Shown here: one piece after another, positions 1,264-30,924 of the stretch
How positions within the stretch are numbered: the first letter of the stretch is position 1
Layout of the letters: each line of letters begins with the position of its first letter
NCBI GenBank assembly: GCA_037481875.1
Contig: JBBFKY010000014.1
Location: 1 to 64,000 of the forward strand
DNA: 64,000 nt
Source: Desulfosoma sp.
GTDB lineage: Bacteria > Desulfobacterota > Syntrophobacteria > Syntrophobacterales > DSM-9756
Reading direction: 5' to 3'
The notes under the pieces: model-generated
Databases searched by the model: none
What the model saw: only the letters and a program-made list of their open reading frames with translations
What the model was told of the DNA's origin: nothing
Made by a program: the position numbers and the translations under genes

Positions 1264-1925
1264 AACCCATGCAACAACACGTCAAGTCAAAATCGAGGGT
1301 TGTGAATCACGGCGAGGTTTTTACGCCTAGGTGGGTTGTCAACGCCATGCTGGACTTGGTCAAGCAAGAGACCGAGCGGATAGACTCTCGATTCCTCGAA
1401 CCGGCCTGTGGTACAGGAAACTTCCTCGAAGAAATTCTAGAACGTAAAATCCGCATCGTTCAAAAACGGTACGGCAAATTGCAGACGGACTACGAACGCT
1501 ACGCCATTCTTGCGGTATCCAGCATCTATGGCATTGATATTCTTGAAGATAACGTTCATGAATGTCGCCAACGTCTTTTTGAGATCGTTAATCGACGATA
1601 CACGGCAACATTCAAGAAGACTGCCAAAGAGCAATTTCGGAAGACGACGCGTTTTATTCTAAAGCGAAACATCGTGTGGGGCGATGCCCTGACCATGATG
1701 CACGTGGGTGAGACACCAAAGCATATCGTGTTTTCTGAGTGGTCTTTGGTAAACGGCGGTCTGATAAAAAGACGAGATTTTACATTTCACCAGCTTGTGC
1801 AACGTGGTAGCAACAAAGAACAAGCCTTAGTCTCTGATCTGGGTACTGGAGTCTTTATCCCAACTCCAATAAAAGAGTATCCACCGGTTCACTTTTTGGA
1901 GATTGCTGATGTTCAGGCAGAATAA
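1260..1925 (+). CDS. N6-adenine DNA methylase subunit, small (motif I subunit)
   Basis: This 221-residue protein begins with the GEVFTPRWVVNAMLDLV segment typical of HsdM/TaqI-like gamma-class methylases. It carries a good S-adenosylmethionine-binding motif I, FLEPACGTGNFLEEIL (about residues 46-61), and YGIDILEDN as motif II. It has no NPPY catalytic motif and ends soon after a conserved block (VFSEWSLVNGGLIKRRDFTFHQLV), so it looks like one half of a two-subunit methylase rather than a truncated one. The NPPY motif is in the next gene, whose start overlaps this stop. The ORF can start at 1260 (overlapping the upstream stop) or at ATG 1269, which is better spaced from AGGGG. Expected role: modification partner of the GIY-YIG/helicase nuclease encoded at 3458-5974. 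Confidence 0.75.
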   Translation: MKPMQQHVKSKSRVVNHGEVFTPRWVVNAMLDLVKQETERIDSRFLEPACGTGNFLEEILERKIRIVQKRYGKLQTDYERYAILAVSSIYGIDILEDNVHECRQRLFEIVNRRYTATFKKTAKEQFRKTTRFILKRNIVWGDALTMMHVGETPKHIVFSEWSLVNGGLIKRRDFTFHQLVQRGSNKEQALVSDLGTGVFIPTPIKEYPPVHFLEIADVQAE

Positions 1926-3408: not shown

Positions 3409-3457
3409 CGATAAAGAGGAAACTACGACCGACCAGGGGACGAACCCAGCGGAGAGG

Positions 3458-5974: not shown

Positions 5975-6095
5975 GTTACGTAATCCACAGCTGAGAAAAG
6001 AAGGGTCTGACAAAGCATACAGGAGACCGCTAAACCGTCTAGGCCACATCCGAAACACCTGACGGGAGACCGAACTTTATTACGTTTAGCACATC

Positions 6096-6693
6096 ATGAA
6101 GAAACTCAAACCACGGGACGGCGCACGCTGTGGGATTGTCGTTCCCGAAAGAACGCTATTTCGTAACGGCCCCTAGGCCACGGTGAAGCAGGACCTCGTG
6201 GAGCAGTTTAATCCGCATACCGTGGTAAGCCTCCCGCCCGGCACCTTCGCTCCATACTCAGACGTCAAGACCGCGCTTCTCTTTTTCGAGCGGCCCGGGC
6301 TGACCAAGGAGATCTGGCATGACGAACTACGGCCTCCAGGCTGGGTGAATTGCGAAGGGGAAAAAAGAAGGCATGTAGTTTACCCAAAACTACCCCATTC
6401 AGCACGAGCACCGTGAGGAAGCCCGGAAGCTGTGGCAATCATGGGATGCTTAGCGCAAGGCTCACGAGCCGCGCGAGGTTTGCCTTTCCGCGCGTTCCTT
6501 GATCGTTCCCGACGAGGAGCTCAAGGCACGTGGCTATCATCTTGCCGCCCGCAACCCCAACCGCAAAGATGCCGAGACGCTTCCATCGCCGGCAGAGATT
6601 GTGGCAGGCTTGCTTGAGCGCGAGCGGGAGATTTTGAGTTTCGTGGAGGAGCTGGATGAGCTTTTAGAGAACGGTAGCGAGCGGGTGGTCTGA
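6096..6693 (+). pseudogene. hsdM: decayed type I methylase gene (hsdM C-terminal half)
   Basis: Translation pieces match the C-terminal half of HsdM but in more than one frame. From 6096 the frame reads MKKLKPRDGARCGIVVPE and is broken by a TAG at 6174-6176. The same frame resumes as VKQDLVEQFNPHTVVSLPPG and TALLFFERPG up to a stop near 6416. A second frame then gives QHEHREEARKLWQSWDA, a TAG around 6451, and LKARGYHLAARNPNRKDAET and AEIVAGLLEREREILSFVEELDELL to the stop at 6693. The N-terminal half with the SAM-binding and NPPF motifs is missing. At least two stops and one frameshift make a functional protein very unlikely. The gene sits just before DUF3800 and hsdS, the usual position for hsdM in such loci. 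Confidence 0.85.
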
Positions 6694-6695
6694 GC

Positions 6696-7463
6696 ATGTA
6701 CGTGGTATTCGTGGACGAATGTGGGTATGAAAAAAACTGGAGCAGTAGCACGGCGATTCAGCGGCAACCTTTCTATGTGTTGGCCGGAGTGGCTGTGCCT
6801 TTTGACCGCATAGCAGACATTTATGTGAGTATTCGCGAGATTATTCGAGGCTTAAATCTTCCTAAAACAAACGCTAATATGCTGGGTAAGGGCGAGGAAA
6901 TCAAAGCCAGCTCAGTGGACAAAGGGGATCGCTTCTGGCAAAGCAACCCTGGATTTCGCGATGGGGTAAGGAAAGGGTATCTGGATCTACAGGAGGTCAC
7001 GTACTTCGTAGTGTGCATCAATAAGCAGCGCCACAAGGCTCAATACTCTTCACCATATGACCCGACACACCTTGCAGCGCAATTTCTTTTTGAGCGGTTC
7101 GAGCATTTTCTTAGCGGAAAGCAAACCTCCGCGTTCGTGCTAATAGATGCGATGAAACGTGAGGAACAAGAACAACGCAGGTGGCTAACCCGAATCTTAA
7201 TGAGCGGGTCGGGGGGTGTTGCTTTGAGCAAATTCTACGACGACTTCTACGTGTGGTCGCTTCAGTTCACACGCATTGTAGAAGTTAATATTGGGAATAG
7301 TAAATATTCTCTTGGACTTCAAATTGCCGATTTTGTCGCCCGCCTCGCGTATTCGTGGCGCAAGAGCGACAAGGATCACAGTTACCCTGGATGGGACCTG
7401 ATTGAGCCAAGGCTTTACCGGTATCCTAGTTATCAGGGTTGGGGCTACAAGGAGTTCCCATAA
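6696..7463 (+). CDS. DUF3800 domain protein
   Basis: The 255-residue protein opens with MYVVFVDECGYEK and later has LGLQIADFVARLAYSW. These are the two hallmarks of DUF3800: an N-terminal strand with an Asp-Glu pair and a C-terminal LQ-x-ADFVA block. The family is thought to have an RNase H-like fold, with the acidic residues (Asp8, Glu9, the Asp of VLIDAMK and the ADF aspartate) as candidate metal ligands. Biochemical function is not established. It starts 2 bases after the hsdM pseudogene and is followed by hsdS at short spacing, so it is embedded in a type I restriction locus, a context seen often for this family. The frame is intact. A role as an accessory nuclease in defence is an inference. 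Confidence 0.8.
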   Translation: MYVVFVDECGYEKNWSSSTAIQRQPFYVLAGVAVPFDRIADIYVSIREIIRGLNLPKTNANMLGKGEEIKASSVDKGDRFWQSNPGFRDGVRKGYLDLQEVTYFVVCINKQRHKAQYSSPYDPTHLAAQFLFERFEHFLSGKQTSAFVLIDAMKREEQEQRRWLTRILMSGSGGVALSKFYDDFYVWSLQFTRIVEVNIGNSKYSLGLQIADFVARLAYSWRKSDKDHSYPGWDLIEPRLYRYPSYQGWGYKEFP

Positions 7464-7477
7464 GGAGGCATGTGGAT

Positions 7478-8698
7478 ATGACGCAGCCACCTTGCAAACT
7501 GCCCGATGGCTGGCGCTGGGTGCGGTTGGGCGAGGTGTATCTACCTACAGAAAGGCGAGATCCGACCAAAGATCCTTCAACGGCTTTCATCTACGTCGAT
7601 ATCTCCCCTGTGGACAATGCTGAGGGAAAGATAGTCTCCCCAAGGGAGATTCTCGGGCAAGATGCTCCTAGCCGTGCGCGGAAGATAATACGTAGCGATG
7701 ACGTTATCTTAGCTACAACTCGCCCTTACCTTAAGAACGTAGCCATTGTCGGCCCCGAACTCGATGGACAAATCTGCTCAACAGGCTTCTTCGTGTTACG
7801 AGCTAACCGCCGTATCGTAGAGCCCTGCTTCTTGTTCTACTTATGCCGGTCGGATCTTGTGGTTGCGCAACTCTCAGACAAAAATACGAGAGGTGCAAGT
7901 TACCCTGCCGTCACAGATAGAGATGTGTATGAGTCCCTCATCCCCCTTCCGCCCCTCGCTGACCAACGCCGCATCGTGGCGCGGATTGAGGAGCTGCTAA
8001 GCCGGGTTCGCGAGGCCCGGCGCCTGCGGGAAGAAGCCCGCCAGGAAACCGAGCTTCTGTGCCAGTCCACCCTTGCAGAGACCTTTCCCCGCCCCGGCGC
8101 AGAACTTCCCCACGGTTGGCGCTGGGTGCGGTTGGGGGAGGTGTTCGAAGTTCAGCAAGGCGCTTCTATGTCGGCTCGAAGACGCCTCGGTCACAACCCG
8201 AAGCCTTTTTTACGGACCAGGAATTTTTTTTGGGGAGCGATCGACACGGCATTAGTAGACGAGATGGATTTCACGGACCAAGAAATAGAAAAGCTTCGCT
8301 TGCAACCGGGTGACCTTCTCGTATGTGAGGGGGGCGACGTCATCTGGGAAGGACAACTTCCAATGGCCTTGTACCAGAACCATGTACATCGTCTTCGTGC
8401 CAAAAATGATTCTATTGAACCGCGCTTCACGATGTACTGGATGCAGGCTGCATACCAAGTGTTCCTCGCGTACCAAGGCTCGGAAAGCAGGACGGCGATT
8501 CCTAACCTATCGGGATCGCGCCTAAAAGAGTTCCTCATCCCCCTCCCGCCCCTCGAGGAGCAGCGGCGGATTGTGGCGCATCTGGAGGCGGTGCAGGAGA
8601 AGATACGCGCGCTCAAAGCCTCCCAGTCAAAGACAGACGAGGACTTGAAACGCCTTGAGCAGGCGATTCTGGACAAGGCGTTTCGGGGGGAGTTGTGA
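7478..8698 (+). CDS. hsdS: type I restriction-modification specificity subunit HsdS
   Basis: 406 residues from ATG 7478, which lies well placed after TAAGGAGG (7461-7468). Two target recognition domains are visible. TRD1 begins LPDGWRWVRLGEVYLPTERR and ends PLPPLADQRRIVARIEELLSRVREARRLREEA (the first conserved helix). TRD2 begins LPHGWRWVRLGEVFEVQQGA and ends IPLPPLEEQRRIVAHLEAVQEKIRALKAS, followed by LKRLEQAILDKAFRGEL. HsdS sets the bipartite DNA target of a type I methylase/restriction complex by bridging two HsdM copies. Here hsdM is a pseudogene and no hsdR lies in the window, so this subunit is an orphan locally. It could work with HsdM/HsdR encoded elsewhere, or be a remnant. The downstream gene overlaps its stop (TGATG). 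Confidence 0.93.
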   Translation: MTQPPCKLPDGWRWVRLGEVYLPTERRDPTKDPSTAFIYVDISPVDNAEGKIVSPREILGQDAPSRARKIIRSDDVILATTRPYLKNVAIVGPELDGQICSTGFFVLRANRRIVEPCFLFYLCRSDLVVAQLSDKNTRGASYPAVTDRDVYESLIPLPPLADQRRIVARIEELLSRVREARRLREEARQETELLCQSTLAETFPRPGAELPHGWRWVRLGEVFEVQQGASMSARRRLGHNPKPFLRTRNFFWGAIDTALVDEMDFTDQEIEKLRLQPGDLLVCEGGDVIWEGQLPMALYQNHVHRLRAKNDSIEPRFTMYWMQAAYQVFLAYQGSESRTAIPNLSGSRLKEFLIPLPPLEEQRRIVAHLEAVQEKIRALKASQSKTDEDLKRLEQAILDKAFRGEL

Positions 8699-15720: not shown

Positions 15721-16815
15721 ATGGCTTTTAGGGAGAGTCCCAGATGGTTGTTGGTTCCCGTTTTCATTATTGCGGGTCTGGTCTGGGCCATGGTTTCAGC
15801 ACCTTCTGCCAAGAATGCTAAAGAAGCCTATCCTTGTCAGGAGTGCCTGGCGACACCTCAGTGGCTTTTGGAACACTCGAAGGATCCCAATGTGGTCATT
15901 GTGGATGTTCGAGAAGATAAAGACCTGGATGGGCGGTTCATTCCTGGGGCTATTCGGCTTCCGTTTCGAAGCTTTCAACGCCATGACACGGTTCGAGGTG
16001 TGGGGGCGGTCTTTGTCGGGGCGATGGAAGCGCAGACGATTCTCGGTCGCGCGGGTATAGCCCGTACGGATACAGTTATCCTTTACGATTCCGTCGCTCA
16101 GGACGGCGGAGCCACGGCGTCCTATGTCTTTTGGGTGCTGGACTACCTGGGGCACCCGTCCAAGCGTATTCTGGAAAGGGGCATCGACGGCTGGGTGGAA
16201 GCCGGAGGAAAGACGGTGACGGAACCTGATCGTCGCGAACCCATTTTCTATCAGGCCCCATCCGAAGAAATTCAAAGGCTGCGCCTGGTGGACGGTCCTT
16301 TTGTTCAAAGCCGCCTAGGGGATTTTTACTACCAAATTCTGGATGTTCGTTCTTCGGAAGAATACCTGGGTGCCCGGCAAACTACGGCCCTTGATGGAAG
16401 TCCGTTGGCTCCGGGCCATATTCCTGGAGCCTTCAACGTGGATTATCGCACCAACTGGCAGGATCCTACTACCAAGGCTCTTCGCTCTTACCCCGAGTTA
16501 CAAAAACTATACGCGGGTTTGGATCCCAATCGTGCCGTCATCGTCTATTGCCATTCTGGACGACGCGCCTCTTTCACTTATTTCGTGCTGCGTCTCATGG
16601 GATTTCAAGACGTACGACTTTATGAAGCTTCATGGAACGAATGGGGAAACCCTCGATTGTATTACCCCGTGGAAACCACGCCTCACCGGCTGGAAGGGGC
16701 TCTTCCCCTGCCGACGGGCATGCCCGCCACGCCGGCAAAATCCCCTCGAGGTGCGAATGACAGCAAGAAAACACAGCCCGCCTCTTCAAGCGGTTACATT
16801 TCTTGCGGAGGATGA
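15721..16815 (+). CDS. exported tandem-domain rhodanese (thiosulfate sulfurtransferase family)
   Basis: 364 residues, starting at ATG 15721 after GGGAGGAGG. An N-terminal hydrophobic segment (about 9-27) looks like a signal peptide or anchor, so the enzyme should be in the periplasm. Two rhodanese domains follow. The first (about 45-165, VVIVDVREDKDLDGRFIPGA) has LYDSVAQDGGAT where a catalytic loop would be, so it lacks cysteine and is structural. The second (about 190-315, QILDVRSSEEYLG) has the active loop YCHSGRRASF with the sulfur-accepting Cys near residue 281. The family transfers sulfane sulfur from thiosulfate or persulfides to acceptors. The two downstream genes encode YeeE/YedE sulfur-compound transporter halves, so the cassette probably handles thiosulfate or sulfane sulfur at the membrane. 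Confidence 0.9.
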   Translation: MAFRESPRWLLVPVFIIAGLVWAMVSAPSAKNAKEAYPCQECLATPQWLLEHSKDPNVVIVDVREDKDLDGRFIPGAIRLPFRSFQRHDTVRGVGAVFVGAMEAQTILGRAGIARTDTVILYDSVAQDGGATASYVFWVLDYLGHPSKRILERGIDGWVEAGGKTVTEPDRREPIFYQAPSEEIQRLRLVDGPFVQSRLGDFYYQILDVRSSEEYLGARQTTALDGSPLAPGHIPGAFNVDYRTNWQDPTTKALRSYPELQKLYAGLDPNRAVIVYCHSGRRASFTYFVLRLMGFQDVRLYEASWNEWGNPRLYYPVETTPHRLEGALPLPTGMPATPAKSPRGANDSKKTQPASSSGYISCGG

Positions 16816-16822
16816 AAGTGCC

Positions 16823-17377
16823 ATGAAGAAAAAAAACCGTCCAAAAAACACAAAGCCTGAGGAAGTGGCGCGGTATTGGCCGGTGCTGCCGGCGGCTTTG
16901 GCCCTGACAGGCATCATTGTTTTCATTTTCGCCAGTTTTGGACCACCGGCGTCTTCCAGCGGGTTCGTGAGCCTTCTCAAAGGCTTTTTGAGTTTCATCG
17001 CTCCCGACTACATCGCTCATAAGGAACACTACAGAATTATTCCAGGGCCGGGTTCCTGGCTTTTTGCCTTTGTTCTCGGCATGGCGGCCGGAGGATACCT
17101 GGGCGGGGTCACGATGGGAAAACCGGTTCGCCATGTCCCGGCCATTTGGGAACGGCGTTTTGGAAATCGGCCGACGCTTCGTTATGCAGCTTCTTTTTTG
17201 GGAGGATTTCTCATCCTTTTTGCGGCTCGCCTGGCCGGCGGGTGCACTCTGGGACTTTTCATTGCCGGATCCACGCAGTTGGCCGTCAGCGGTCTTTATT
17301 TCGGAGTGATCATTTTTGCCGTGGCCATGCTCACCAGTCGCCTAGTGTACGGATCACACAAAGGAGGCAGCCGATGA
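16823..17377 (+). CDS. YeeE/YedE-type sulfur transporter, N-terminal-half subunit
   Basis: I use ATG 16823, 7 bases after the rhodanese stop, because the longer ORF upstream only overlaps the rhodanese in another frame. The 184-residue product has about four hydrophobic segments and the signature RLAGGCTLGLFIAG, in which the conserved Cys of YeeE/YedE (TsuA) transporters sits in a GGC-x-LG context. In well-studied members the two halves form one polypeptide of about 350 residues that passes thiosulfate through a cysteine relay. Here the second half is encoded by the next gene, overlapping by ATGA, so the two subunits should be made in equal amounts and assemble. Confidence 0.85.
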   Translation: MKKKNRPKNTKPEEVARYWPVLPAALALTGIIVFIFASFGPPASSSGFVSLLKGFLSFIAPDYIAHKEHYRIIPGPGSWLFAFVLGMAAGGYLGGVTMGKPVRHVPAIWERRFGNRPTLRYAASFLGGFLILFAARLAGGCTLGLFIAGSTQLAVSGLYFGVIIFAVAMLTSRLVYGSHKGGSR

Positions 17378-17916
17378 CGCAGGTTTTGCTCGGTCTTTTT
17401 TCTGGAATTGCTTTCGGCTTTGTGATTCAGCGGATCGGGGCTACGGATCCCGACGAGATGGCCCGAGCGCACCTCATGAGAGATGGTCGAATTCCTCAGT
17501 TTATGATGTTGGCTGTAGCCTTTTCAGCCCTTGGCCTGGCGGGGCTTCAGGCGGTGGGTGTGGGCCGTATGGTCATTTTACCGACTAGTGTGGTGGCCAC
17601 GGGAACCGCCGCTGTACTTTTCGGGATCGGTTGGGGATTGTGCGGCTATTGTCCAGGAACCTGCTGGGCCGCCGCAGGAGAAGGTCGCCTTGACGCCGTT
17701 TTTGCGCTTCTTGGAGGTCTCGCGGGAACCGCTGTTTTCGCCCATTTCCATGAATGGATCATCCCGGTGCTTTATATGCCCACCAATAAGGGACCACTGA
17801 GCCTGGAAGACTGGGTGGGAAACCGATACGTTGCCGCCTTTGGGCTTGCCTTGGTTTTTGCCGCCGCGGCCTGGGGCATCGGCAAGATCTGGAAGGACGG
17901 TATTAGGGATGCTTAA
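17374..17916 (+). CDS. YeeE/YedE-type sulfur transporter, C-terminal-half subunit
   Basis: 180 residues from ATG 17374, which overlaps the previous stop as ATGA and follows AAGGAGG. The conserved motif GIGWGLCGYCPGTCWAAAGEGRLDA (about residues 84-108) supplies three cysteines expected in the second half of YeeE/YedE transporters. About five membrane segments are visible, and the last one ends just before the C-terminus. With the preceding gene it completes a thiosulfate/sulfur-compound permease. The next gene starts inside its 3' end. Confidence 0.85.
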   Translation: MTQVLLGLFSGIAFGFVIQRIGATDPDEMARAHLMRDGRIPQFMMLAVAFSALGLAGLQAVGVGRMVILPTSVVATGTAAVLFGIGWGLCGYCPGTCWAAAGEGRLDAVFALLGGLAGTAVFAHFHEWIIPVLYMPTNKGPLSLEDWVGNRYVAAFGLALVFAAAAWGIGKIWKDGIRDA

Positions 17917-19308: not shown

Positions 19309-21360
19309 TTAGGATGCTGCTTTGGCTTTACGGATCGACACCGCTCCAACCTTGAACTCCGGGATTTTGGCTAATGGGTCGTAGTCCTTAGCGCTTGTGA
19401 GGATGTTGGCGGGGCTTTCCCCAAAATGGATGGTGGTAAAAAGTGTTCCAGGTGCGACACGGTCTGTGATCCTCACAGGGGCCAGCATTTCTCCTCGACG
19501 CGACTTCACCACTACCAACTCTCCAGAAGATACCCCGATCCTAGAGGCATCCTTTGGATGCATTTCCACATACCCTTCCCGTTGTTCTCGATCCAGCTGC
19601 GGTGAAATGCGTGTCATTGTTCCCGTATGATAATGAGCGAACATACGTCCCGTAGAAAGCACAAAAGGGTATTCCTCCGAAGGTTTCTCCGCAGGATCCT
19701 GGTGTTCCACCGCGTGGAATGTTCCGCGTCCTTTGGTGAAGCGATCCCGATGCAGATACCGGGTTCCGGGATGTTCGGCCGTCGGGCACGGCCAGAACAG
19801 CCCATCGATGCCGAGACGGCTGTAGCTCATCCCTCCGTAATGAGCAGGGCTCATTCGAGTGATTTCTTGAAATATCTCTTCGGGAGTTCGATAAGACATC
19901 GGATATCCCATGATGGTGGATAAACGACATAAGATTTCCCAATCTGGAAGTGACTGCCCTACGGGATCCACCGCTTTTCGAATCCTTTGGCAACGCCTTT
20001 CGGTATTTGTAAACGTTCCATCCTTTTCCGCCGCCGAAGTCGCGGGAAGGACCACATCCGCCACTTGCGCCGTTTCCGACAGGAAGATATCTTGGACGAC
20101 AAGAAAATCCAGCCGCCGCAGCGCTTGACTCAAGTGATGCCAGTCGGGGTCGCTGAGTTTCGGGTTTTCCCCAATAACATAAAGGGCTTTCAGCTTTCCC
20201 GCCATCATTGCAAAGGCCATCTCCGTGATGGTAAGACCCGGCTTCTCCGGTATGGGCCGTCCCCACGCTTTGGCAAAGCGTTCTCTTACCTCAGGATTCG
20301 TTACCGCCTGATAACCCGGAAGCAGTGTGGGCAGTCCTCCCATGTCGCAGGCCCCCTGAACATTGTTTTGTCCCCGCAAGGGATTCACGCCACCTCCGCG
20401 TACGCCGACGTTTCCACAGAGCATGGCCAGGTTACAGATTGCCTTGACGTTATCCACACCGGTGACATGTTGCGTGATGCCCATGGTGTAGAAAATGGAT
20501 GCGGGCTTATGAGTGGCGTAAATCTCCGCCAGTTTCTCCAGGTCCTTGGCGGGCACTCCTGTTATGGTTTCCGCACGCTTCGGATTGTAGGCGACAACAA
20601 CCTCTTTCATCTTGTCAAAGTTTTCCGTACGTTCCTCAATGTATGATTTGTCCTCCCAGCCGTTTTGCAGGATCACATGCATCACTCCGTTGAGGAGTGC
20701 CACATCCGTTCCGGGCTTGTGGTGCACGGCGAGATCCGCAAAGCGAGCCAGCTGAATCTTTCGTGGGTCCGCCACCAAAAGTTTGGCCCCTTTCTCCCGG
20801 GCCCGCAGCATGCGACGCGCCACAAGGGGATGGCATTCCGTGGTGTTCGATCCGATCACGAAAACACAGGCTGACTCCTCGATTTCCTCGATGGAATTGG
20901 TCATGGCCCCACTCCCGAACGCGGCGGTAAGACCTACCACCGTTGAGGAGTGTCACAAACGAGCACAGTGATCGATATTGTTGGTTCCTAAAACCGCGCG
21001 AGCGAATTTTTGCGCCAGATAATTTTCCTCATTGGTTATCTTGGCCGAAACCAAAACCCCTATACTCTCAGGGCCGTAGGTGTCCCGAATCTTTTCGAGC
21101 TTTTCAGCGGTGATCGCCAAAGCTTGGTCCCAGCTCACTTTGCGGAACCGTCCGCTGATTTTCACAAGAGGCGCCTTGAGGCGCAAAGGATGCGTGACGG
21201 CTTCATGGAGGTTCCAGCCCTTGATACAAAGCTTTCCTTGATTTACCGGGTGCGTTTTCAAAGGCATTGTGCCGATGAACCGGCCGTTGAGCACCTTCAA
21301 CAGCACACCGCATCCCGTTCCGCAATACCAGCACACGGAAGGTACGAGCTTGTAGTCCAT
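19309..21360 (-). CDS. fdhA: formate dehydrogenase catalytic subunit, selenocysteine-containing
   Basis: One 683-residue selenoprotein, read through an in-frame UGA at 20955-20953. The N-terminus has the [4Fe-4S] cysteines of molybdopterin oxidoreductases (CWYCGTGC and GKLCIKG). The flanks of the UGA read NNIDHCARL-U-HSSTVVGL, the well-known ARLUHS site of Sec formate dehydrogenases, giving Sec136 (Sec140 in E. coli FdhF). Bis-MGD-binding segments follow (YTMGITQHVTGVDNV, NPLRGQNNVQGACDMG, YVIGENPKLSDPD, ending in a dinucleotide-binding C-terminal domain). There is no Tat signal, so it should be cytoplasmic. It oxidises formate or reduces CO2. It is the last gene of the minus-strand operon with hdrA, mvhD and an Fe-S subunit, its likely electron partners. 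ATG 21360 is the first in-frame start before the cysteine cluster. Confidence 0.96.
20923..20955 (-). promoter_or_regulatory. bacterial SECIS element and Sec UGA of fdhA
   Basis: The UGA (20955-20953) is followed after 11 bases by a 7-bp stem, GGTGGTA (20941-20935) with TACCGCC (20929-20923), containing one G-U pair. The apical loop is GGTCT. The distance from UGA to GGTCT is 18 bases, the same as in E. coli fdhF, whose loop also carries GGUCU and binds SelB. Confidence 0.9.
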
Positions 21361-21419: not shown

Positions 21420-22235
21420 TTATTCCGCCAAGCCAATTCCGCCGGCTGCAAACCGCCTTTTTTCTTCCTCATCCATCGGCCCAAGGGACAAGGGTTCTGT
21501 GGCAAGTCCCGGGACATAGTCAAAAAGGTCTTTCACGACAGCGGCCACTTTCCGGTACAGGAGGCGAAGCGGGATATCCACAGGGCAGGCTTCTTCGCAC
21601 AAACCACAATCGACACACCGTCCCGCCATGTGTACGGCCCGCACCATATGGAACAGAGGGACTTCCACGGGAAGCCACCCTTTTTCCACCAGATTTTCAT
21701 CGGCCAGGCTACAATCCTTGCAGACGCACACAGGGCAAATATCCCGACAGCCATAGCATTTGATGCATTTGTCAAATTCGTACGCCCAACGTGCGAAGCG
21801 TTCCTCGGGCTCCATTTCTTCTACAGCTTCTAAAGACGTTCCTTGATATATTCCCCACCGACTTTTTCCCGGCAGTTGCGGCGGTGCCTGAAGCGAAGAG
21901 CATTGCGGGCTTTGATGCAAAGGTGAAGGGCAACACTCCACCGTAATCATTCGCAGCCGTTCCGGTTCCAACTGCCGAAGCACGCCCAGCACGTTCACGG
22001 CTCTTTGTGTGCACCCACGCGCCAAAAGCCCGATCCGGACTTCCGGGTTCTGCGCTTGGATCTCCATCGCCATCTTTTCCAGAGGATATCGGGCGGAGCC
22101 CTCCACAAGTTCCTCCAGCTCCTCTAACCGCTCCCGATGAAATGCGTACGGAACAGGATGTCCCTCCACCAGGCGATATCCAAGGAAGACCTCAATTTCT
22201 CCACTTTCCAACCATGATCGAACGGTCTCCTTCAT
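21420..22235 (-). CDS. iron-sulfur electron-transfer subunit of the formate dehydrogenase/Hdr complex
   Basis: I place the start at ATG 22235 (MKETVRSWLES), which follows AAGGAG; the longer ORF upstream overlaps mvhD in another frame. The 271-residue product has an N-terminal segment with GLLARGCTQRAVNVL, resembling FrhB/FdhB-type flavoprotein beta subunits. Two cysteine clusters suited to [4Fe-4S] centres follow: CIKCYGCRDICPVCVCKDC and CVDCGLCEEACPVDIPL. It sits between mvhD and fdhA with short gaps, so it probably carries electrons from FdhA towards MvhD/HdrA. It could equally be called FdhB-like or HdrC-like. No membrane segment is present. Confidence 0.8.
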   Translation of the reverse strand: MKETVRSWLESGEIEVFLGYRLVEGHPVPYAFHRERLEELEELVEGSARYPLEKMAMEIQAQNPEVRIGLLARGCTQRAVNVLGVLRQLEPERLRMITVECCPSPLHQSPQCSSLQAPPQLPGKSRWGIYQGTSLEAVEEMEPEERFARWAYEFDKCIKCYGCRDICPVCVCKDCSLADENLVEKGWLPVEVPLFHMVRAVHMAGRCVDCGLCEEACPVDIPLRLLYRKVAAVVKDLFDYVPGLATEPLSLGPMDEEEKRRFAAGGIGLAE

Positions 22236-22251
22236 GGCTTGCTCCTTCGGC

Positions 22252-22758
22252 TCAGACGGCCTGGGCCAACGTTTCAATCCATCTTGCAGGCTCTTGGGTT
22301 TCCATCGGCCCATCCCTTCTCCAGCTCGGTTCTTCTGATTCCATCCTTTGACGGATCGGACTGGGGCCAAGAGCCCGAATGTGCTCCGTAAACTCTGTGA
22401 TGACCCGAGCAAACTTTTGCCCCTCAGCCGAAGAAATCCACTCCAAACGAAGGCGTTCCTCCAGCCCAATGAAGCCGAGCAAGGCATTCAGAAACAGGAA
22501 ACGTTTGAGCGTGGCATGATTTCCGTAAAGGTAGTGGCAGTCTCCCAAGTGACAGCCCCCTACCAAAACGCCGTCGGCACCGCTTTGAAACGCTCGAAGA
22601 ATATAGTGAGGGGACACTCCGGCCGAACACATCACCCGAACGGGTCTGAGGGTCGCCGGGTAGCGAAATCGACTGACTCCCGCCAGGTCTGCGGCGCCAT
22701 ACGCACACCATGTGCACAAAAAGGCGACTATCTTCGGCTCAAAACGAGACTCTTTCAT
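22252..22758 (-). CDS. mvhD: MvhD-type hydrogenase/Hdr [2Fe-2S] delta subunit
   Basis: 168 residues, ATG 22758 after GGGGAGGGG. The family signature cysteines are present: AFLCTWCAYGAADLAG, VRVMCSAGVSPHYIL and GVLVGGCHLGDCHYLYGN. They match MvhD, which in methanogens and many anaerobes links a hydrogenase or formate dehydrogenase to HdrA. The gene lies 53 bases after hdrA and 16 bases before the Fe-S subunit gene in the same operon, as expected for an FdhA-FdhB-MvhD-HdrA complex. Cytoplasmic. Confidence 0.93.
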   Translation of the reverse strand: MKESRFEPKIVAFLCTWCAYGAADLAGVSRFRYPATLRPVRVMCSAGVSPHYILRAFQSGADGVLVGGCHLGDCHYLYGNHATLKRFLFLNALLGFIGLEERLRLEWISSAEGQKFARVITEFTEHIRALGPSPIRQRMESEEPSWRRDGPMETQEPARWIETLAQAV

Positions 22759-22811: not shown

Positions 22812-25800
22812 TCACGCCGCCAAAGCCTGACGAATCTGGGCGTAAATCTGAGCGTGCGTAAAACCTTGAAGCGTCGCCGCCTCCGCCGGGCATGCCGCGG
22901 CACAGGCACCGCACCCCTTGCACAGGGCCGGAACCACTTCAGCAACCCTTTTCTCCGGGTGCACCTCAATAGCCCCAAAGGGGCAGACCCTGGGACAAAT
23001 ACCGCACCCTATGCATTTGTCAGGATCAATCCAGCTGACAACACCAGAAAGAACGATGCTGTCTCGGCTCAAAACCCTTAACGCCCGTGCCGCTGCCGCC
23101 TGTGCCTGCGCAACGGATTCTTCCACGGGTTTTGGATAATGAGCCATGCCGCACAGAAAGACTCCGTCCACGGCGAAATCTATGGGGCGAAGTTTTTGAT
23201 GCGCTTCCAGAAACCATCCATCCCCGTCCATAGGAACCTTGAAAAGCTTGGCCAGTTCCGTGTCCCTATACGATTCGATTCCAGTGGCAAGGCACAGCAC
23301 ATCCACTTCAACCTCAATCGGTCGGCCTAAAATCGTATCCAGGACCTCAAGGCGGACACGGTCACCCACAGGAGCGACCTTCGGCTTTCCTGTCAATTGG
23401 TACCGGATAAAGAGCACGCCTTCTTGACGGGCTTTTTGATAGAGTTCCTCTCGGCGCCCGTAAGTCCTCATGTCTCGATAAAAGACGTAGATCTCCATAT
23501 CCGGATTGAGCCGCTTCAAAGACAAGGCACTGCGCACGGTGTGAGTGCAGCAGACTTTGGAGCAATAAGGGCGGTCCGGTGTGCGCGAACCGACACATTG
23601 GATGAAGCCGACAGCTCGCGCATTCCTGAGGCGTGTCGAAGAATCTTTCAACAGAGCGTCCAATCCTAAGGAAGTGACCACTGCCGGATGCTCTCCGTAC
23701 AGGTACTCCCGAGTAGAGGCTTCTCGAGCTCCGCTGGCGATCACCGCCACTCCGTGCTCCACATGGACATCCCGGCCGTTTTCTTGAATATGGCTTTTGA
23801 ACTGCCCCACAAATCCTTCCACGTTCACCAAGGAAGCTTTTTTATGAATGACGATATTGGGATGGTTTTCTACGGAACGGATCAGGGATTCCACTAGAGG
23901 CGCCATGGGTTCTCCATTCCAGCCTTCATTGACTTTCAAAGCCCAACCGCCAAGTCGATCGGTTTTTTCCACCAGATGGACGGGAAACCCATGGTTCGCC
24001 AGCGTCAGAGCCGCCGTCATTCCTGCGATGCCTCCGCCGACAACCAGAGAGGATTTCGACACCGAAATATGCATTTCTTGAAGCGGCGAAAGCAGTCGAG
24101 CCTTGGCCACGGCCATGCGCACCATATCCTTGGCTTTGAGCGTAGCCGTGACCGGATCGTCGCTGTGGACCCAGGAATCCAGATTTCGAATATTGGCCAT
24201 CTCCAGTAAAAACTTATTCAGCCCTGCTTGGATCAAGGTTTCTTGGAATAGACATTCATGAGTGCGTGGGGAACACGCCGCCACCACCACGCGATTGAGA
24301 TTGCGTTCTCGAATCACTTCGGCCATGCGTTGTTGGCTGTCTTGGGAACATGTGAACAAGTTTTCTTCAGCATACACCACGCCCTCGAGCCCAGCTGCGT
24401 AACGGACGACTTCCGGAACGTCCACCACTCCTCCGATGTTGATGCCGCAACGACACACAAAGACACCGATACGAGGCCGCTCAAGCCTTACGTCCCGTTC
24501 CTTCGGTGGTTCTACGACACGGGTCATGGTATGGCGCACGGATGCCAAAGGAATCGTTGCTGCGGCCGCGGCGGCACTGGCTTCCATCACGGAAAGGGGA
24601 ATATCCTTTGGTCCGTTAAACGCTCCGCAGACATAGATTCCCGGACGTGATGACGCCACCGGCATTCCCAGACTTGTTCTTGCAAAGCCGTTCCGGTCCA
24701 GGTCGATTCCCAGGCGCTGAGCCGTTTTGACGGCCTCTTCGCCTATTTTCAGCCCTACAGAAAGAACGATCAGATCGAACGTTTCCCGAATCACTTCTCC
24801 CTGTTCTGTAACGTAGTAAATCTCGAGATCTCCTCCGCTGCCGGGGACTTGTTCCACACTATGCACACGGCTGCGAATCAAACGCACACCATATTGTTCT
24901 TGGGCTCTCTGGGCATACCGATCAAAGTCCTTTCCTGGGGTGCGCATATCCATGAAGAAAATGGCCGTATCCAGGTCTTTTCCGATGTGTTCCTTGGCGA
25001 TGACCGCTTCCTTGACGGCATACATGCAACAGACGGCCGAACAGTAAGCATGGTCGCAGTGATGAATGTCTCGAGAACCCACACACTGAAGCCACGCGAT
25101 CTTTTTGGGTTCCTTGTGGTCCGAAGGCCGCACCACATGGCCCATGGTCGGCCCCGACGCCGAAAGCAGCCGCTCGAATTCCATGGCCGTCATGACGTTG
25201 GGCAATCGTTTGTAACCGTACGTGTCGTAAATGCTGGGATCAAAAGGTTCAAAACCGGGAGCCACAATCACGGCCCCAACCTGAAGTTCCTGAACATGTT
25301 CTTGATCCTCATGGACCACAGCGTCGGCCAAACAGGCATCCACACAGCGGTAACATTCCGAACATACGCCGCAGTCCAAGCATCTTTGAGCTTCCCGGCG
25401 TACCTGCTCTTCCGTGAATCCCAACTGCACTTCGTTAAAGTTTCCAAGGCGCTCCTTGGGGCTCAAGCGAGGCATGCGCTCTCGAGGTATCCGATCATAG
25501 CCTTCCGTCGGCACATTCTGGACCGCTTCCCAGCGCTTTTCTCGCCCTTGACGTAAATCTTCGCCGCGCAAAAACCGATCCATGGACACGGCGGCTTCCT
25601 TGCCGGCCGCAATGGCTTCAATGACCGTCCGTGGTCCCGTAACCGCATCACCTCCGGCAAAAATATCCGGATCGTCCGACTGCAAGGTCAGGGGATCCAC
25701 CTTGATGGTTCGCCAATCACTCAAAGAGCAGGCACATTCCGGCGTGAGACACGACCAATCCGTCTCCTGCCCGATGGCGGCGATGACCGCGTCCACTTCC

Positions 25801-27257
25801 AGAATAAAATTGGACCCCTTCACTTCTACAGGCCGACGACGACCGCTCGCATCCGGTTCCCCAAGAGCCATCTTCACGCATTCGATGGCCTTGACCTTCC
25901 CGTTTTCCCCAATGATACGAACGGGATTGGTCAGGGTGAGAATCTCGATGCCTTCCTCATGGCATTCTTCAATCTCTTCCTCATTGGCAGGCATTTCCGC
26001 CAAACTGCGCCGATACACGATAAAAGGTTTCTTGGATCCCGTGCGCAGCGCCGTGCGGACACAGTCCATGGCCACATTGCCGCCGCCCACCACCGCCACG
26101 CGATCCCCAAGAAAGATTCGATTCCCCAGGTTCACTTCCCGCAAGAACTGAACCCCGGAATACACCCCTTCCAGATCTTCGCCTTCAATGCCCAGCTTCT
26201 TGCACTCATGGGCTCCGATGCCGATGAAAAACGCCTTGTAACCCTGCTCGCGCAACTGCCCGATGGTGAAGTCCTTCCCGATTTCCACTCCGGTTTTGAA
26301 CTCCACCCCCATGTCACGAATCACCTGAATCTCCGCCTCGATGATATCCCGAGGCAGCCTATAGGCGGGAATACCTACCGTGAGCATCCCTCCCAGAACC
26401 GGAAGCTTCTCAAAGACCGTGACCCGGTAACCTTCCTGCGCCAAGTAATAGGCGCAGGTTAAACCCGCGGGGCCGGACCCGATAATGGCCACCTTTTCTT
26501 CCCGCTTTTGCTTGATTTCAGGAACAAACCGAGTTTCCGCCTTGAGATCCAAATCGGCGATGTAGCGCTTGATAAAGTCAATAGCCACCGGCTCATCCAC
26601 TTTGCCCCGCATACAGGCGGTCTCACAGGGATGATGGCACACACGCCCGCAGATAGCCGGCAAAGGATTATCCTTCTTGATCAGCTCCAAGGCTTCCCGG
26701 TACCGCCCCTGGGCCGCCAAGGCCACATAACCTTGAACCGAAATATGGGCGGGACAGGTGGCCTTGCACGGAGAAGTCCCACGCTTTTCAATGGCAAAGG
26801 CTCCCGGAACCGCTTGAGGGTAAAGGCGATAGGCCGCCCGCCGCTCGCTTAAACCCATGTCGAATTCGTTTTTCAGGGTCACGGGACACACACGGGCACA
26901 TTCTCCACAGCCCGTGCATTTTTCCAGGTCGATGAAACGAGGTTTTCGGCGAACCTTGACCCGAAAATTTCCAGGCTCCCCGCTCAGTTCTTCCACTTCA
27001 CTCAGGGTCAAAACCTCAATGTTTAAATGCCGGCCGACCTCGACCAGTTTGGGAGAGATAATTCACATGGCACAGTCATTGGTAGGAAACGTCTTGTCCA
27101 ACTGGGCCATCGCACCCCCGATGGACGACGCTTTTTCCAGCAGGTAGACGTAAAAACCCGTGTCAGCGATGTCGAGGGCGGCTTGCATGCCTGCAACGCC
27201 GCCGCCGATCACCAACACGGCACCTCGAACTTTTCCGTCTTCACCCTCGTGCCTCAT
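22812..27257 (-). CDS. hdrA: HdrA-type flavoprotein fused to a GltD-like domain, selenocysteine-containing
   Basis: A selenoprotein of about 1481 residues. The start ATG 27257 is 7 bases after GGAGG; ATG 27263 and 27272 are alternatives. Domains in order: HdrA FAD-binding start ([15 protein letters not shown]), then [18 protein letters not shown] with Sec65 where most HdrA proteins have Cys; a [4Fe-4S] motif ([13 protein letters not shown]); an inserted GltD-like NAD(P)H:acceptor module (about 158-560, with [29 protein letters not shown] and [11 protein letters not shown]); the rest of HdrA ([19 protein letters not shown]); a second HdrA-like unit (about 925-1390, [33 protein letters not shown]); and a C-terminal 2x[4Fe-4S] ferredoxin ([24 protein letters not shown]). 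HdrA performs flavin-based electron bifurcation. The GltD-like insert suggests NAD(P)H as a third partner. Operon with mvhD and fdhA. Confidence 0.93.
27030..27065 (-). promoter_or_regulatory. bacterial SECIS element and Sec UGA of hdrA
   Basis: The UGA is at 27065-27063. A 6-bp stem with G-U pairs, CTGGTC (27047-27042) with GGCCGG (27035-27030), closes the loop GAGGTC, which contains the AGGUC core typical of SelB-binding bacterial SECIS loops. The loop begins 21 bases after the UGA. The stem is weaker than that of fdhA. Confidence 0.75.
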
Positions 27258-27286: not shown

Positions 27287-27976
27287 CTACCAGATCTCCA
27301 TTTCCAGTCGCTTGAGGAGGAAGAGCAGTTCTTTCTGGGTCAGTTCACCGATATGCTCGTGAATCCACCGAATGTCGCCCGACAAAATGGCGGCTTTAGC
27401 CTCCGCCGAAAGTGTGTAATCCTGCAGAGCCTGAGATCCATGTTCCACAAGGGCTTTCCAGAACGCATCATCATCGGCCGCTCTGTTCAGAACCCGCATG
27501 ACCTCGCGTCGCTCGATAAGTCTGTCCACATGCTCGGTGACCTTTTCAACGGGAGCACGCAGCAGTGCATCCAGCTTTTCCTTTAAAGCTTCATAAACAG
27601 CTTGTTTGAATTCATCCTCCGTGAAAGGCTTCGGTAAATACTCCCGAACCCCGATTTTCATGGCCTCGACCGCAGATTCTACGGAAGCATAACCTGTGAT
27701 GACGATCACCTCCGTTTGAGGTTTGATCGACTTGACATGGCGGATTACATCCATGCCGTTCATGTCAGGGAGTTTCAGGTCGGCCACCAAAAGGTCAAAG
27801 GCTTTATCGTAGCATTTCTCCAAGGCAGTCTGACCCGTCATGGCCCAATCCACGTCGTAGCCTTCCTCCTCCAAAACCATGCGCAATCCCTTCGCCACAT
27901 AAACCTCATCCTCCATCAGAAGGATATGCGGCGAAACCCTCGTGTCTTCCCGGACCAATTCTTCAACGGCGATCAT
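27287..27976 (-). CDS. response regulator, first gene of the hdrA-fdhA operon
   Basis: 229 residues from ATG 27976, which follows AAGGAGG; the ORF extends further upstream but without a signal. Residues about 15-130 form a receiver domain: LLMEDE acidic pocket, phospho-acceptor Asp in [13 protein letters not shown], conserved Thr in [14 protein letters not shown] and Lys in EYLPKPF. The C-terminal 100 residues (about 130-229) are helical ([41 protein letters not shown]) and contain no DNA-binding or enzyme domain I recognise. It is transcribed with hdrA 29 bases downstream, so it may act on the complex itself or on the nearby kinase. Confidence 0.88.
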
Positions 27977-28048
27977 GATCCTTCCTCCTTTCCCCTTGAA
28001 TCCTTTCTTTGACTTCATTCCCCGTGTCCTTATCCGACCGACATGGGG

Positions 28049-28063
28049 GCAAGATTCATGCCC
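28049..28063 (-). promoter_or_regulatory. sigma-54 promoter of the response regulator-hdrA-mvhD-fdhA operon
   Basis: On the minus strand the sequence reads GGGCATGAATCTTGC. It matches the sigma-54 consensus TGGCACG-N4-TTGC with GG and GC exactly 10 bases apart. The -12 GC lies about 73 bases before ATG 27976. The gene just upstream on the same strand encodes an NtrC-type activator, which such promoters require. An imperfect inverted repeat at 28163-28173/28182-28191 (CTTCGGTGTAT and ATACGCGAAG) is a candidate activator site. Confidence 0.75.
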
Positions 28064-28233
28064 GAGGGAAGAAAGAAGAAAGGTCCCCTCAAATCCTTCT
28101 TAAAACGAGAAAATGCGTGCCGCTGCGCTTTTTGTTGCATCCCCGTTGTCCTTTGAAGGGCGCTTCGGTGTATGAGCCGTGATACGCGAAGAGGGGGTCC
28201 GCGCGGGAAAGTGCTTGATCTCTGCTGCTGAAA

Positions 28234-29679
28234 TCAGCGTATATCGAAAGATACAGTGGATAGTTCCGAGGATCGATTCGTGTGCGCTTGAAGTCGAATC
28301 TTGTGTTTCTTCAGAAGCACCGAAAGATTGGATCGTTTCATGCCGATCTTTTGAGCCGCTTTACTGATGTTTCCTCCGGATTCCTCCAGAACTTTTTTCA
28401 AAAAGGCTTTTTCGATGCGTGCATAGGTTTCTTCCAGAAGCCGCTTTTTCATTTTTTTCAGATCATCCATGGTTTGAGGCAAACTTTCAACACCCCAACG
28501 TCCCGCCCCATGAATGTGATCCATCAGGTCCCACACATGAACAATCGGTTGATCCGCCATGATGACCAGACGTTCAACCACGTTTTTCAATTGCCGCACA
28601 TTTCCCGGCCAAGGATGTTCCTTCAAAGCTTCCAGAGCATCTTCGGTAAATCCGTCGATTTTTTTTCCTGTTTTTCGGCAAAAGAGACGCAAGAAGTGAT
28701 AAGCCAATCGAGGAATATCGTCTTTTCGTTCCCGCAGGGGCGGTAGCACAATGGGAAAAACGTTAAGCCTGTAGAAAAGGTCTTCGCGGAAGGTTCCTTC
28801 TTGGGTCATGGCTTTGAGGTCCCGGTTGGTGGCACAAATCACCCTGGTGTCCGTTGTCTTGAAGACGGTCGCCCCAACCGGCTTGTACTCCCGAACCTCC
28901 AGAACCCTTAAAAGCTTCCCCTGCGTTTCCAAGCTCAAGTTGGCGATATCGTCCAGAAACAGGGTGCCTCCATGAGCGGCTTCAAAAATACCCTTTTTGT
29001 CCTGAATAGCCCCTGTAAACGCCCCTTTCACGTGCCCAAAAAGTTCACTTTCCAGGAGCGTGGAAGACAAGGTGCTACAATCGACGGCAATAAACGGGCG
29101 GGTCGCTCTAGGGCTGTGGGCATGGATGGCACGGGCGAAGAGTTCTTTGCCCGTGCCGTGTTCCCCGCAAATGAGCACGGTGGTGTCCGTGGGAGCCACC
29201 CGCGCAACCTGATCGAAAACTTTAAGCATGGCAGGATCTTCACCGATAATATTGGCAAAACTGAAGCGATCCGCTATTTCTTTGCGCAGCCTTGCATTCT
29301 CTTCCACGAGTTTTCTTTTCTCGATGGCCCTTTCCACGCTCAGCACCAATTGATCTTCAAGAAAAGGTTTGCATAGGTAATCAAAAGCTCCAAGTTTCAT
29401 GGCTTTGACGGCATTTTCCACCGTGGCATAGCCGGTCATGACGATGAAACATTCTCTTCGATTGTGCTTCTTCGCTTGTTGGAGAATCTCCATTCCTTCC
29501 CCATCGGGCAAACGAAGATCGAGGAGCACCACATCAAAGCTTTCCGCCGCAAGGGTTTCCTGGCCGCACCTTGCCGTGGAGCACACACGCACCTCATAGC
29601 CTCGTTCGCTCAGAACCATGCGACACCCTTCGCCAAGTCGCATCTCATCTTCGATAATCAGAATACGGCCCTTTTCCAT
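28234..29679 (-). CDS. NtrC-family sigma-54 activator response regulator
   Basis: 481 residues in the classic three-domain layout. The receiver domain (1-120) has the phospho-acceptor Asp in VVLLDLRLPDGEG. The AAA+ sigma-54 interaction domain (about 145-375) has GEHGTGKELFARAIH as Walker A, the sigma-54 contact loop ESELFGHVKGAFTGA, GGTLFLDDI as Walker B, and the arginine-rich FREDLFYRLNVFPI block. The C-terminal Fis-type helix-turn-helix lies at about 415-460 (LEESGGNISKAAQKIGMKRSNLSVLLKKH). The partner kinase is encoded 21 bases upstream. A sigma-54 promoter downstream drives the hdrA-fdhA operon, so that operon is the likely target. Confidence 0.95.
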   Translation of the reverse strand: MEKGRILIIEDEMRLGEGCRMVLSERGYEVRVCSTARCGQETLAAESFDVVLLDLRLPDGEGMEILQQAKKHNRRECFIVMTGYATVENAVKAMKLGAFDYLCKPFLEDQLVLSVERAIEKRKLVEENARLRKEIADRFSFANIIGEDPAMLKVFDQVARVAPTDTTVLICGEHGTGKELFARAIHAHSPRATRPFIAVDCSTLSSTLLESELFGHVKGAFTGAIQDKKGIFEAAHGGTLFLDDIANLSLETQGKLLRVLEVREYKPVGATVFKTTDTRVICATNRDLKAMTQEGTFREDLFYRLNVFPIVLPPLRERKDDIPRLAYHFLRLFCRKTGKKIDGFTEDALEALKEHPWPGNVRQLKNVVERLVIMADQPIVHVWDLMDHIHGAGRWGVESLPQTMDDLKKMKKRLLEETYARIEKAFLKKVLEESGGNISKAAQKIGMKRSNLSVLLKKHKIRLQAHTNRSSELSTVSFDIR

Positions 29680-29700
29680 AAACGGCTCCGTGCGCGCCTT

Positions 29701-30924
29701 CTACGAGCCATCGCTTCTGTGGAACGGAAGTTCGACGATGAAGCGGCTGCCTTGGCCGGGCTGGCTTTCCACCTTTATGATTCCTCCATGGTTGGAGACA
29801 ATTCCATAAGAGACGGCCAATCCCAAGCCCGTGCCCTTCGGTTTCGTGGAAAAGAAAGGTTCAAAGATTTTCTCTCGAAGCTCCGGTGCCATTCCACACC
29901 CGGTATCCTCCACCGCAAGAAACTGAGCTTGCCCGTCTTCACACCATCCCGTGGTGACCGAAATTTTTCCCCCGCTTCCGATGGCTTCGACGGCATTCAG
30001 CAAAAGGTTGACGACCACCTGCTGTATTTGATTCACATCAAGCATCAGTTCCGGAAGGTTGGTATTCAATTTTTTTTCCACATGGATTTGATGCAATCGG
30101 CATTCATTTTCCAAAAGAGACAAAGCTCTTTCCACCAAGACGTTGAGCTTTGCTCTAACCTTGCTAGGCGCTCTGTCCCTGGCAAACTCGAGAAGATCCT
30201 GAATGATGCTTCGACACCGAATGGTCTCACTGATAATGATTTCCAAAGCCTCCTTGACAGGCTTAAGGTCACCGACCCTTTTCATGGCGTTGCTGCTGTA
30301 GAGCAGTATACTGGACAACGGATTGTTAATCTCATGGGCAATGCCGGCGGCCATGCGTCCTAACGCAGAGAGTTTTTCCGTCTGGAGAGCCAGACGTTCA
30401 TATCGGCTTTCTTGCTCTTCAAAAAGTCGTGCTTTATCGATGGCACAGGCGCAAAGCTGCGCCACGGAGACGAGAAAATCCAACTCCTTTTCCGAAAATG
30501 TTCGCTTTTCTGAAAAAAGAACTCGAAGCACTCCCACCACATCTTCCCGAAGGATCAATGGTGCATCCAGCATCATAACGATGCCTTCATCGATAGCTTC
30601 TTGAGGATACTGAACCCGAGGATCGTTGAGAATATCATCAATAATAATGACCTTCTTTTTTCTACATAGTTCAGTAATCATTTTTCGGCTGGAAACATGC
30701 CCTTTAGTCAGGTATTTTTCACTCAGGCCGTACGCCGCATAGAGGTCCATTTGTTCGGTTTGAAGGTTCACGATTCGAAGAATGGCCCCTTTGGCTTTAA
30801 AGATGTCTGCAATCCGTTCTACTGCAAAGGCCATGACATCATTGACATTTGTCGCGGCGTGGACCACCGCCGCGAGATCACGAAAGGATTCGAAAAATGT
30901 TTCCGACGTAAGCGTTACTCCCAT
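29701..30924 (-). CDS. GAF-domain sensor histidine kinase
   Basis: 407 residues without a membrane segment, so probably a soluble cytoplasmic sensor. The N-terminal GAF domain spans about 15-170 (VNDVMAFAVERIADIFKAKG, LDAPLILREDVVGVLRVLF). The HisKA phospho-acceptor helix is LGRMAAGIAHEINNPLSSILL, with the His in AHEINNP (about residue 204). The ATPase domain has N box VVNLLLNAVEAIG, G1 VEDTGCGM and G2 KGTGLGLAVSYGIV. It is transcribed with the NtrC-type regulator 21 bases downstream. The signal bound by the GAF domain cannot be told from sequence; formate, redox state or a metal are possible given the target operon. Confidence 0.93.
   Translation of the reverse strand: MGVTLTSETFFESFRDLAAVVHAATNVNDVMAFAVERIADIFKAKGAILRIVNLQTEQMDLYAAYGLSEKYLTKGHVSSRKMITELCRKKKVIIIDDILNDPRVQYPQEAIDEGIVMMLDAPLILREDVVGVLRVLFSEKRTFSEKELDFLVSVAQLCACAIDKARLFEEQESRYERLALQTEKLSALGRMAAGIAHEINNPLSSILLYSSNAMKRVGDLKPVKEALEIIISETIRCRSIIQDLLEFARDRAPSKVRAKLNVLVERALSLLENECRLHQIHVEKKLNTNLPELMLDVNQIQQVVVNLLLNAVEAIGSGGKISVTTGWCEDGQAQFLAVEDTGCGMAPELREKIFEPFFSTKPKGTGLGLAVSYGIVSNHGGIIKVESQPGQGSRFIVELPFHRSDGS

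Follow-up and report, generated by a model that had tools for sequence, protein, structure and literature searches.

The window analysed here, a stretch of 64,000 nucleotides (positions 1-64,000 of contig JBBFKY010000014.1) from the Desulfosoma sp. assembly GCA_037481875.1 (genome G000), carries on its minus strand an operon with the order hdrL-mvhD-fdhB-fdhA(Sec). The first gene, hdrL (22812..27257), encodes a 1481-residue HdrA-GltD-HdrA fusion selenoprotein, as delineated by translation with TGA read as U, by Pfam and NCBIfam matches and by full-length relatives; its likely start is the ATG at 27257, upstream of which lies a Shine-Dalgarno-like GGGAGG. Directly downstream, as in most relatives, is the Cys form of mvhD (22252..22758; FlpD family, Pfam PF02662, 2.3e-48). 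It is followed by a gene for an FdhB-like small Fe-S protein of 272 aa (21420..22238), for which Fer4 was the only Pfam match and the domain search found no F420/FrhB flavin domain, and by fdhA (19309..21360), which encodes a formate dehydrogenase alpha subunit of 683 aa with selenocysteine 136 (TGA 20955-20953). Indeed, FdhA scored 849 bits against TIGR01591, above the Fdh-alpha cut-off of 666, and contains the active-site features U136-H and RGQNNVQG. Upstream of hdrL, also on the minus strand, the domain search identified a receiver protein, a sigma-54 response regulator and a GAF histidine kinase (27287..30924), and the same two regulators occur upstream of the Fdh-linked hdrL in the same-genus genome G300 (locus L164). 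A search for sigma-54 promoters gave no excess of matches (21 found versus 34 expected). Elsewhere in the window, positions 15721-17916 encode a rhodanese-like protein and then two YeeE/YedE-like membrane proteins, possibly for sulfur transport, and positions 1260-8698 appear to hold a restriction-modification island with methylase-, helicase- and specificity-subunit-like genes.

The full 1481-residue frame of hdrL requires selenocysteine, since residue 65 is encoded by an in-frame TGA (27063..27065 on the minus strand, read 27065-27063; motif DCAM-U-IISP), which was missed in a preliminary description. With the standard code the open frame begins at a TTG at 27011 and is just 1399 aa long; a start at this codon would remove the FAD fold of HdrA unit 1. 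The TGA sits at the CxxC/CxxU position of HdrA, and of 69 full-length relatives, 14 have TGA and 55 have TGC or TGT at the corresponding codon. On its 3′ side lies a SECIS-like hairpin (27030..27047, minus strand; CTGGTCGAGGTCGGCCGG, stem-loop CTGGTCGAGGTCGGCCGGC) that folds with 7 bp and an AGGU loop. This hairpin is invariant at 19/19 bases in all 14 Sec relatives and identical to that of the window; in the 55 Cys relatives, which show 49 different sequences here, just 8-16 of the 19 bases agree with it. Because Rfam at gathering thresholds returned no match within the window, the SECIS call for hdrL rests on comparison together with the fold. The genome encodes selB and a tRNA-Sec with a UCA anticodon. 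A nonsense mutation was ruled out by the TGA at the aligned codon in 14 relatives and by the invariant hairpin, and the evidence supports reading the window HdrL as a bacterial selenoprotein of the HdrA CxxU type, selenocysteine in HdrL proteins being already on record (PMC2702500). The fdhA TGA is also accompanied by a SECIS-like hairpin, as judged by folding. On another contig of this genome (C2, near 315650; L114:3151-3242) we observed a tRNA of tRNA-Sec shape with a GCA (Cys) anticodon; after it come an mvhD gene and then a second selB (4349-6349). This tRNA and the second selB fit the known selC*/selB* pair of Syntrophobacterales (reviewed in PMC7609411), and the position of mvhD between them hints at a target.

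The preliminary description had placed at this locus one polypeptide of about 1480 residues with an HdrA start, a GltD-like module, the rest of HdrA, a duplicated HdrA-like unit and a C-terminal double ferredoxin, and both its coordinates and its domain order were borne out by domain search and AlphaFold comparison. The first part of HdrA unit 1 (26784..27230; all domains on the minus strand), HdrA-type over residues ~12-158, holds the FAD fold GGGVAG and the first cluster of the inserted ferredoxin (C114, 117, 120, 124). Next comes an inserted GltD and 4Fe-4S module of the StnC/NfnABC type (residues 159-641, 25335..26783), with the motifs GSGPAG (FAD) and GGGNVAMD plus YRR (NADP) and residues K230 and R300; the domain search placed GltD/Fer4_20 at 161-566, with a 4Fe-4S tail at 626-642. 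The second part of HdrA unit 1 (24540..25334, to residue ~906) holds E695 and K749, equivalent to E356/K409 of HdrA. HdrA unit 2 lies at residues 925-1400 (23058..24485), where GGGIAG is kept and the E356/K409 positions are D1200/R1242. The C-terminal ferredoxin (residues 1409-1459, 22881..23033) has two 4Fe-4S motifs with 8 Cys invariant in 70 sequences, and all presumed Fe-S cluster cysteines of the protein are likewise invariant in this set. Spanning the insert, the AlphaFold model of residues 12-912 (pLDDT 88) could be aligned to HdrA (8rvu_a, Z 50, 419 residues over model 1-896), and its residues 148-630 align to StnC/NfnABC (Z ~50, rmsd 1.6, 472-473 residues). As modelled, the insert is a GltD and 4Fe-4S module as in the StnC/NfnABC large subunit, not a bare GltD, and the alignment suggests that it takes the place of the second cluster motif in the ferredoxin inserted in HdrA.

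Residue conservation suggests how these flavin sites may divide their work. E695 and K749 of HdrA unit 1 are kept in 70/70 sequences; at the corresponding positions of unit 2, relatives of the window protein carry mixed residues beside its own D1200 and R1242, so that the bifurcation residues were not found in this unit. These residues suggest that HdrA unit 1, not unit 2, is the bifurcation site, and the duplicated unit seems more likely to serve for docking and relay than as another site of bifurcation. In the GltD domain we looked for loss of key FAD or NAD(P) residues and found them retained. R300, the equivalent of NfnB R201 and StnC R239, is present in 70/70, and K230, at the StnC K170 position of the FAD-proximal cluster, is Lys in 59 and His in 11 of the 70 and never Glu. 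In NfnB, which bifurcates, this cluster has a Glu ligand, and the flavin of StnC does not bifurcate (PMC10482914). Lys or His in 70/70 suggests that this is a StnC-like, non-bifurcating NADP(H) site through which electrons pass, and that bifurcation takes place at HdrA unit 1. The shared fold and the kept Arg at the NfnB R201 position speak for another reading, in which the GltD flavin itself bifurcates as in NfnB and HdrA unit 1 is a mere relay; we nevertheless think this quite unlikely, given that the cluster-ligand Glu of NfnB is replaced throughout, as in StnC, where bifurcation was lost, and that the HdrA bifurcation residues are invariant. The second Rossmann motif of the window GltD domain, GGGNVAMD followed by YRR, is one that we take to mark a preference for NADP(H), and these motifs suggest NADP(H) rather than NAD(H) at this site. 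RR occurs in 47/70 sequences; in 23/70 relatives Glu replaces the second Arg, mostly as LE, which suggests that the Glu-bearing relatives use NAD(H). A candidate rule by which NAD-type ([CMS]LE) and NADP-type (YRR) motifs track the partner type was not strictly followed.

HdrL is not confined to this genome. By architecture and gene context the window protein is a member of the HdrL family known from sulfate-reducing bacteria, for which matches at E <= 1e-300, nearly all full length, were found in 129/297 sampled genomes of the Desulfobacterota, and the GltD insertion is therefore not uncommon, as it had been called. Named genomes with HdrL include Syntrophobacteraceae, Desulfobacteraceae, Desulfarculus relatives, one Pelotomaculum and one Spirochaetes MAG. 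The full-length copies in the window genome are Fdh-linked (window), Flx-linked (contig C13, hdrL-mvhD-flxCBA-hdrC and then a CCG domain) and HdrCB-linked (contig C6, hdrCB-hdrL-hdrA-mvhD). A GltD fusion in another order, suspected from frame length on contig C9 (L023, G000:C9:118000-137900), was rejected; the genes there are separate and form one operon, fdhA-nfnA-nfnB-hdrA-mvhD-fdhB, with a NuoG-type fdhA and a type II, Sec-containing hdrA. This locus hints at cooperation between HdrA and an NADP-linked GltD protein also where the two are not fused. Other arrangements were also seen. For example, contig C12 (L026:11158-14511) encodes a 1118-aa HdrA-like/GltD fusion beside 2-oxoacid:ferredoxin oxidoreductase genes, a KOR-linked variant; in genome G299 (L167), homologues of nfnA and nfnB (82% and 87%) lie directly 5′ of an HdrL-MvhD-FdhB cluster; and the HdrL proteins of Desulfamplus (L067, L070, L071) are ~60-100 residues longer.

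The Fdh-linked and Flx-linked copies share more than architecture. A block of 2164 bp in the window hdrL (24938..27101, minus strand; codons 52-773) has exactly the same DNA sequence as its counterpart in the Flx-linked hdrL of contig C13 (locus L021); beyond it DNA identity drops to about 60%, and the C-terminal halves of the two proteins are 58% identical. Such a mosaic was found in 6/7 genomes of the window's family with paired HdrL copies. In the other five the pair reaches 99% over residues ~1-900 (G300, same genus), 99-100% from residue ~9 to 900 (Desulfacinum infernum, G162, with the assembly broken between 205 and 362), 96-100% from residue 371 to about 900 (G298), 89-100% from residue 469 to about 800 (G187) and 97-98% over about 300-600 (G299, a single-contig genome). 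No homogenised block was found in the G297 pair or in the other 19 paralogue pairs examined, which lie outside the family or involve other partner pairs. In trees the HdrL N-halves pair by genome and the C-halves by partner; for the N-half, AU tests rejected an Fdh clade (p 0.0012), and for the C-half they rejected the two same-genome pairings (p 3e-6 and 6e-5). Identical repeats are hard to assemble, and contigs of D. infernum and MAG-79 break there, yet an assembly artefact is a most improbable source of the 2.16-kb identity, because the near-identical pairs of G300 (99%) and G298 (96-100%) contain real differences and a converted block lies within one single-contig genome, G299. We read these patterns, which are as expected of such a process, as probable repeated gene conversion of the hdrL front half, stopping before HdrA unit 2. 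MvhD matches the C-terminal extension of an HdrA2 model, and this match, together with the partner-wise grouping of the C-halves, points to the C-half as a putative docking adaptor. We consider it probable that HdrL represents "one engine, many adaptors", in which conversion homogenises HdrA unit 1 and the GltD half among formate-, Flx/NADH- and FdhB-linked copies and the C-half, before which the tracts end, evolves separately as a partner-docking adaptor. Between the window's genome and the same-genus G300 (locus L164), FdhB (54%) and the Fdh-type HdrL C-half (59%) are far more diverged than FdhA and MvhD (both 71%) and the Flx-type C-half (89%). Among papers readable without subscription, our literature search found no report of HdrL gene conversion.

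Taken together, we propose, with a probability of roughly 0.55, that HdrL is the central component of a soluble and reversible formate:NADP+:ferredoxin electron-bifurcating oxidoreductase, with a StnC-like GltD domain, a shared, converted N-half and a partner-fixing C-half. Formate would be oxidised at the Se-Mo/W site of FdhA, and FdhB and MvhD would hand the electrons on to the C-half of HdrL, a partner-specific docking and relay region made up of unit 2 and the two-cluster ferredoxin, from which they would reach the FAD of HdrA unit 1, the predicted bifurcating flavin (E695/K749). In one branch, electrons would travel along the Fe-S clusters of the inserted ferredoxin to the FAD of the GltD domain, which would be a non-bifurcating NADP(H) site as in StnC, and reduce NADP+; the other would reduce ferredoxin. 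In reverse, NADPH and reduced ferredoxin would yield formate. The N-terminal engine would be common to the Flx-linked HdrL and kept alike by gene conversion, with the C-half fixing the partner. A link between formate, ferredoxin and NAD(P)H had been suggested before; it fits the operon and the kept FAD and NADP residues, and its bifurcating activity is a prediction from sequence. A plain NADP- or NAD-dependent formate dehydrogenase, whose flavins pass electrons without bifurcation, is conceivable in that NAD(P)+ can be reduced by formate in an uncoupled reaction; the invariance of the bifurcation residues in HdrA and the preserved two-cluster ferredoxin make it unlikely here.

The higher-potential acceptor in the proposed scheme would be NADP+ in place of a heterodisulfide, so that no HdrBC would be needed in the operon. 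The window had been described as having no separate HdrB/HdrC, and we found no HdrB-type CCG domain on the window's contig, with 17 CCG matches elsewhere in the genome. Against the model, HdrL paralogues adjoin HdrBC (contig C6) and HdrC with a CCG domain (contig C13), so HdrBC could join in trans, and a 2025 study of archaea holds that GltD, by possibly obstructing access to the site for ferredoxin, may act as a donor site instead (PMC12054007). The main rival builds on these points: Fdh-MvhD-HdrL would dock HdrBC encoded elsewhere, with a disulfide (DsrC or an unknown thiol) as acceptor and NAD(P)H at GltD as second donor. The identity of the C13 and window N-halves, the type III HdrA proposal in that study and the position of D. 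autotrophicum HdrL1 next to dsrABC (PMC2702500) lend it weight, whereas no HdrB was found in the window or in the Fdh-linked operons of G300, G162 and G298, and a complete NADP(H) module is already present in the N-half alone; we regard this rival as possible, if rather doubtful. For the bifurcating formate:NADP+:ferredoxin reading, the residues give a definite, testable electron route, with NADP(H) at a StnC-type site, bifurcation at unit 1 and docking at the C-half. Furthermore, the natural mosaics are ready-made chimeras, with identical engines on different C-halves in one cell, and a C-half swap should therefore swap formate for NADH input. Anaerobes may thus re-plug one bifurcating module into several donors.

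HdrL was described in 2009 from Desulfobacterium autotrophicum HRM2 as an Hdr/glutamate synthase fusion and called unique to that strain (PMC2702500). The HRM2 proteins resemble the window in this fusion, in selenocysteine (HdrL1 and HdrL3), in an adjoining mvhD and in fdhB or fdhBA at some Hdr loci; in contrast, HdrL is phylum-wide in our analysis, which adds the NADP-type signature and the concerted N-half. A fdhAB-hdrL-mvhD cluster of Desulfurivibrio dismutans, published in 2025 (PMC12142623), likewise encodes HdrL, MvhD and FdhAB together, a likeness of gene content; unlike the window cluster it is located among Wood-Ljungdahl genes, and its proposed role is to supply CO2 reduction from DsrC/DsrAB. 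In methane archaea, type III HdrA also has GltD inserted in the HdrA ferredoxin domain; it comprises 9 sequences of 1,152, read as NAD-type (PMC12054007), whereas the window HdrL combines GGGNVA and YRR (NADP-type) with a second HdrA unit and with an Fdh partner. StnC of the Stn transhydrogenase and the NfnABC large subunit (8oh5, 9bov, 9n5u) share with the window protein the GltD and Fe-S module (Z ~46-51, rmsd 1.6-2.2), and StnC shares the Lys at the FAD-proximal cluster, a StnC-like feature for which the non-subscription papers searched held no report in HdrL; StnC carries a fused NuoG/FdhF-like domain and has a HydBC-type bifurcating module as its partner, while the window module is set inside HdrA. 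The HdrABC-MvhAGD and Fdh-Hdr-Fmd complexes (5odc, 7bkb) have the same HdrA fold, bifurcation residues and MvhD and formate dehydrogenase partners, but a heterodisulfide acceptor via HdrBC, one HdrA unit and no NADP site; no isolated HdrL complex was described in the literature searched. The HdrL fusion, its selenocysteine, the mvhD neighbour, the fdhAB-hdrL-mvhD cluster and the inserted-GltD type in archaea are therefore already published, and what is new here is the mosaic, an N-half identical to that of the Flx-linked HdrL joined to a C-half that differs.
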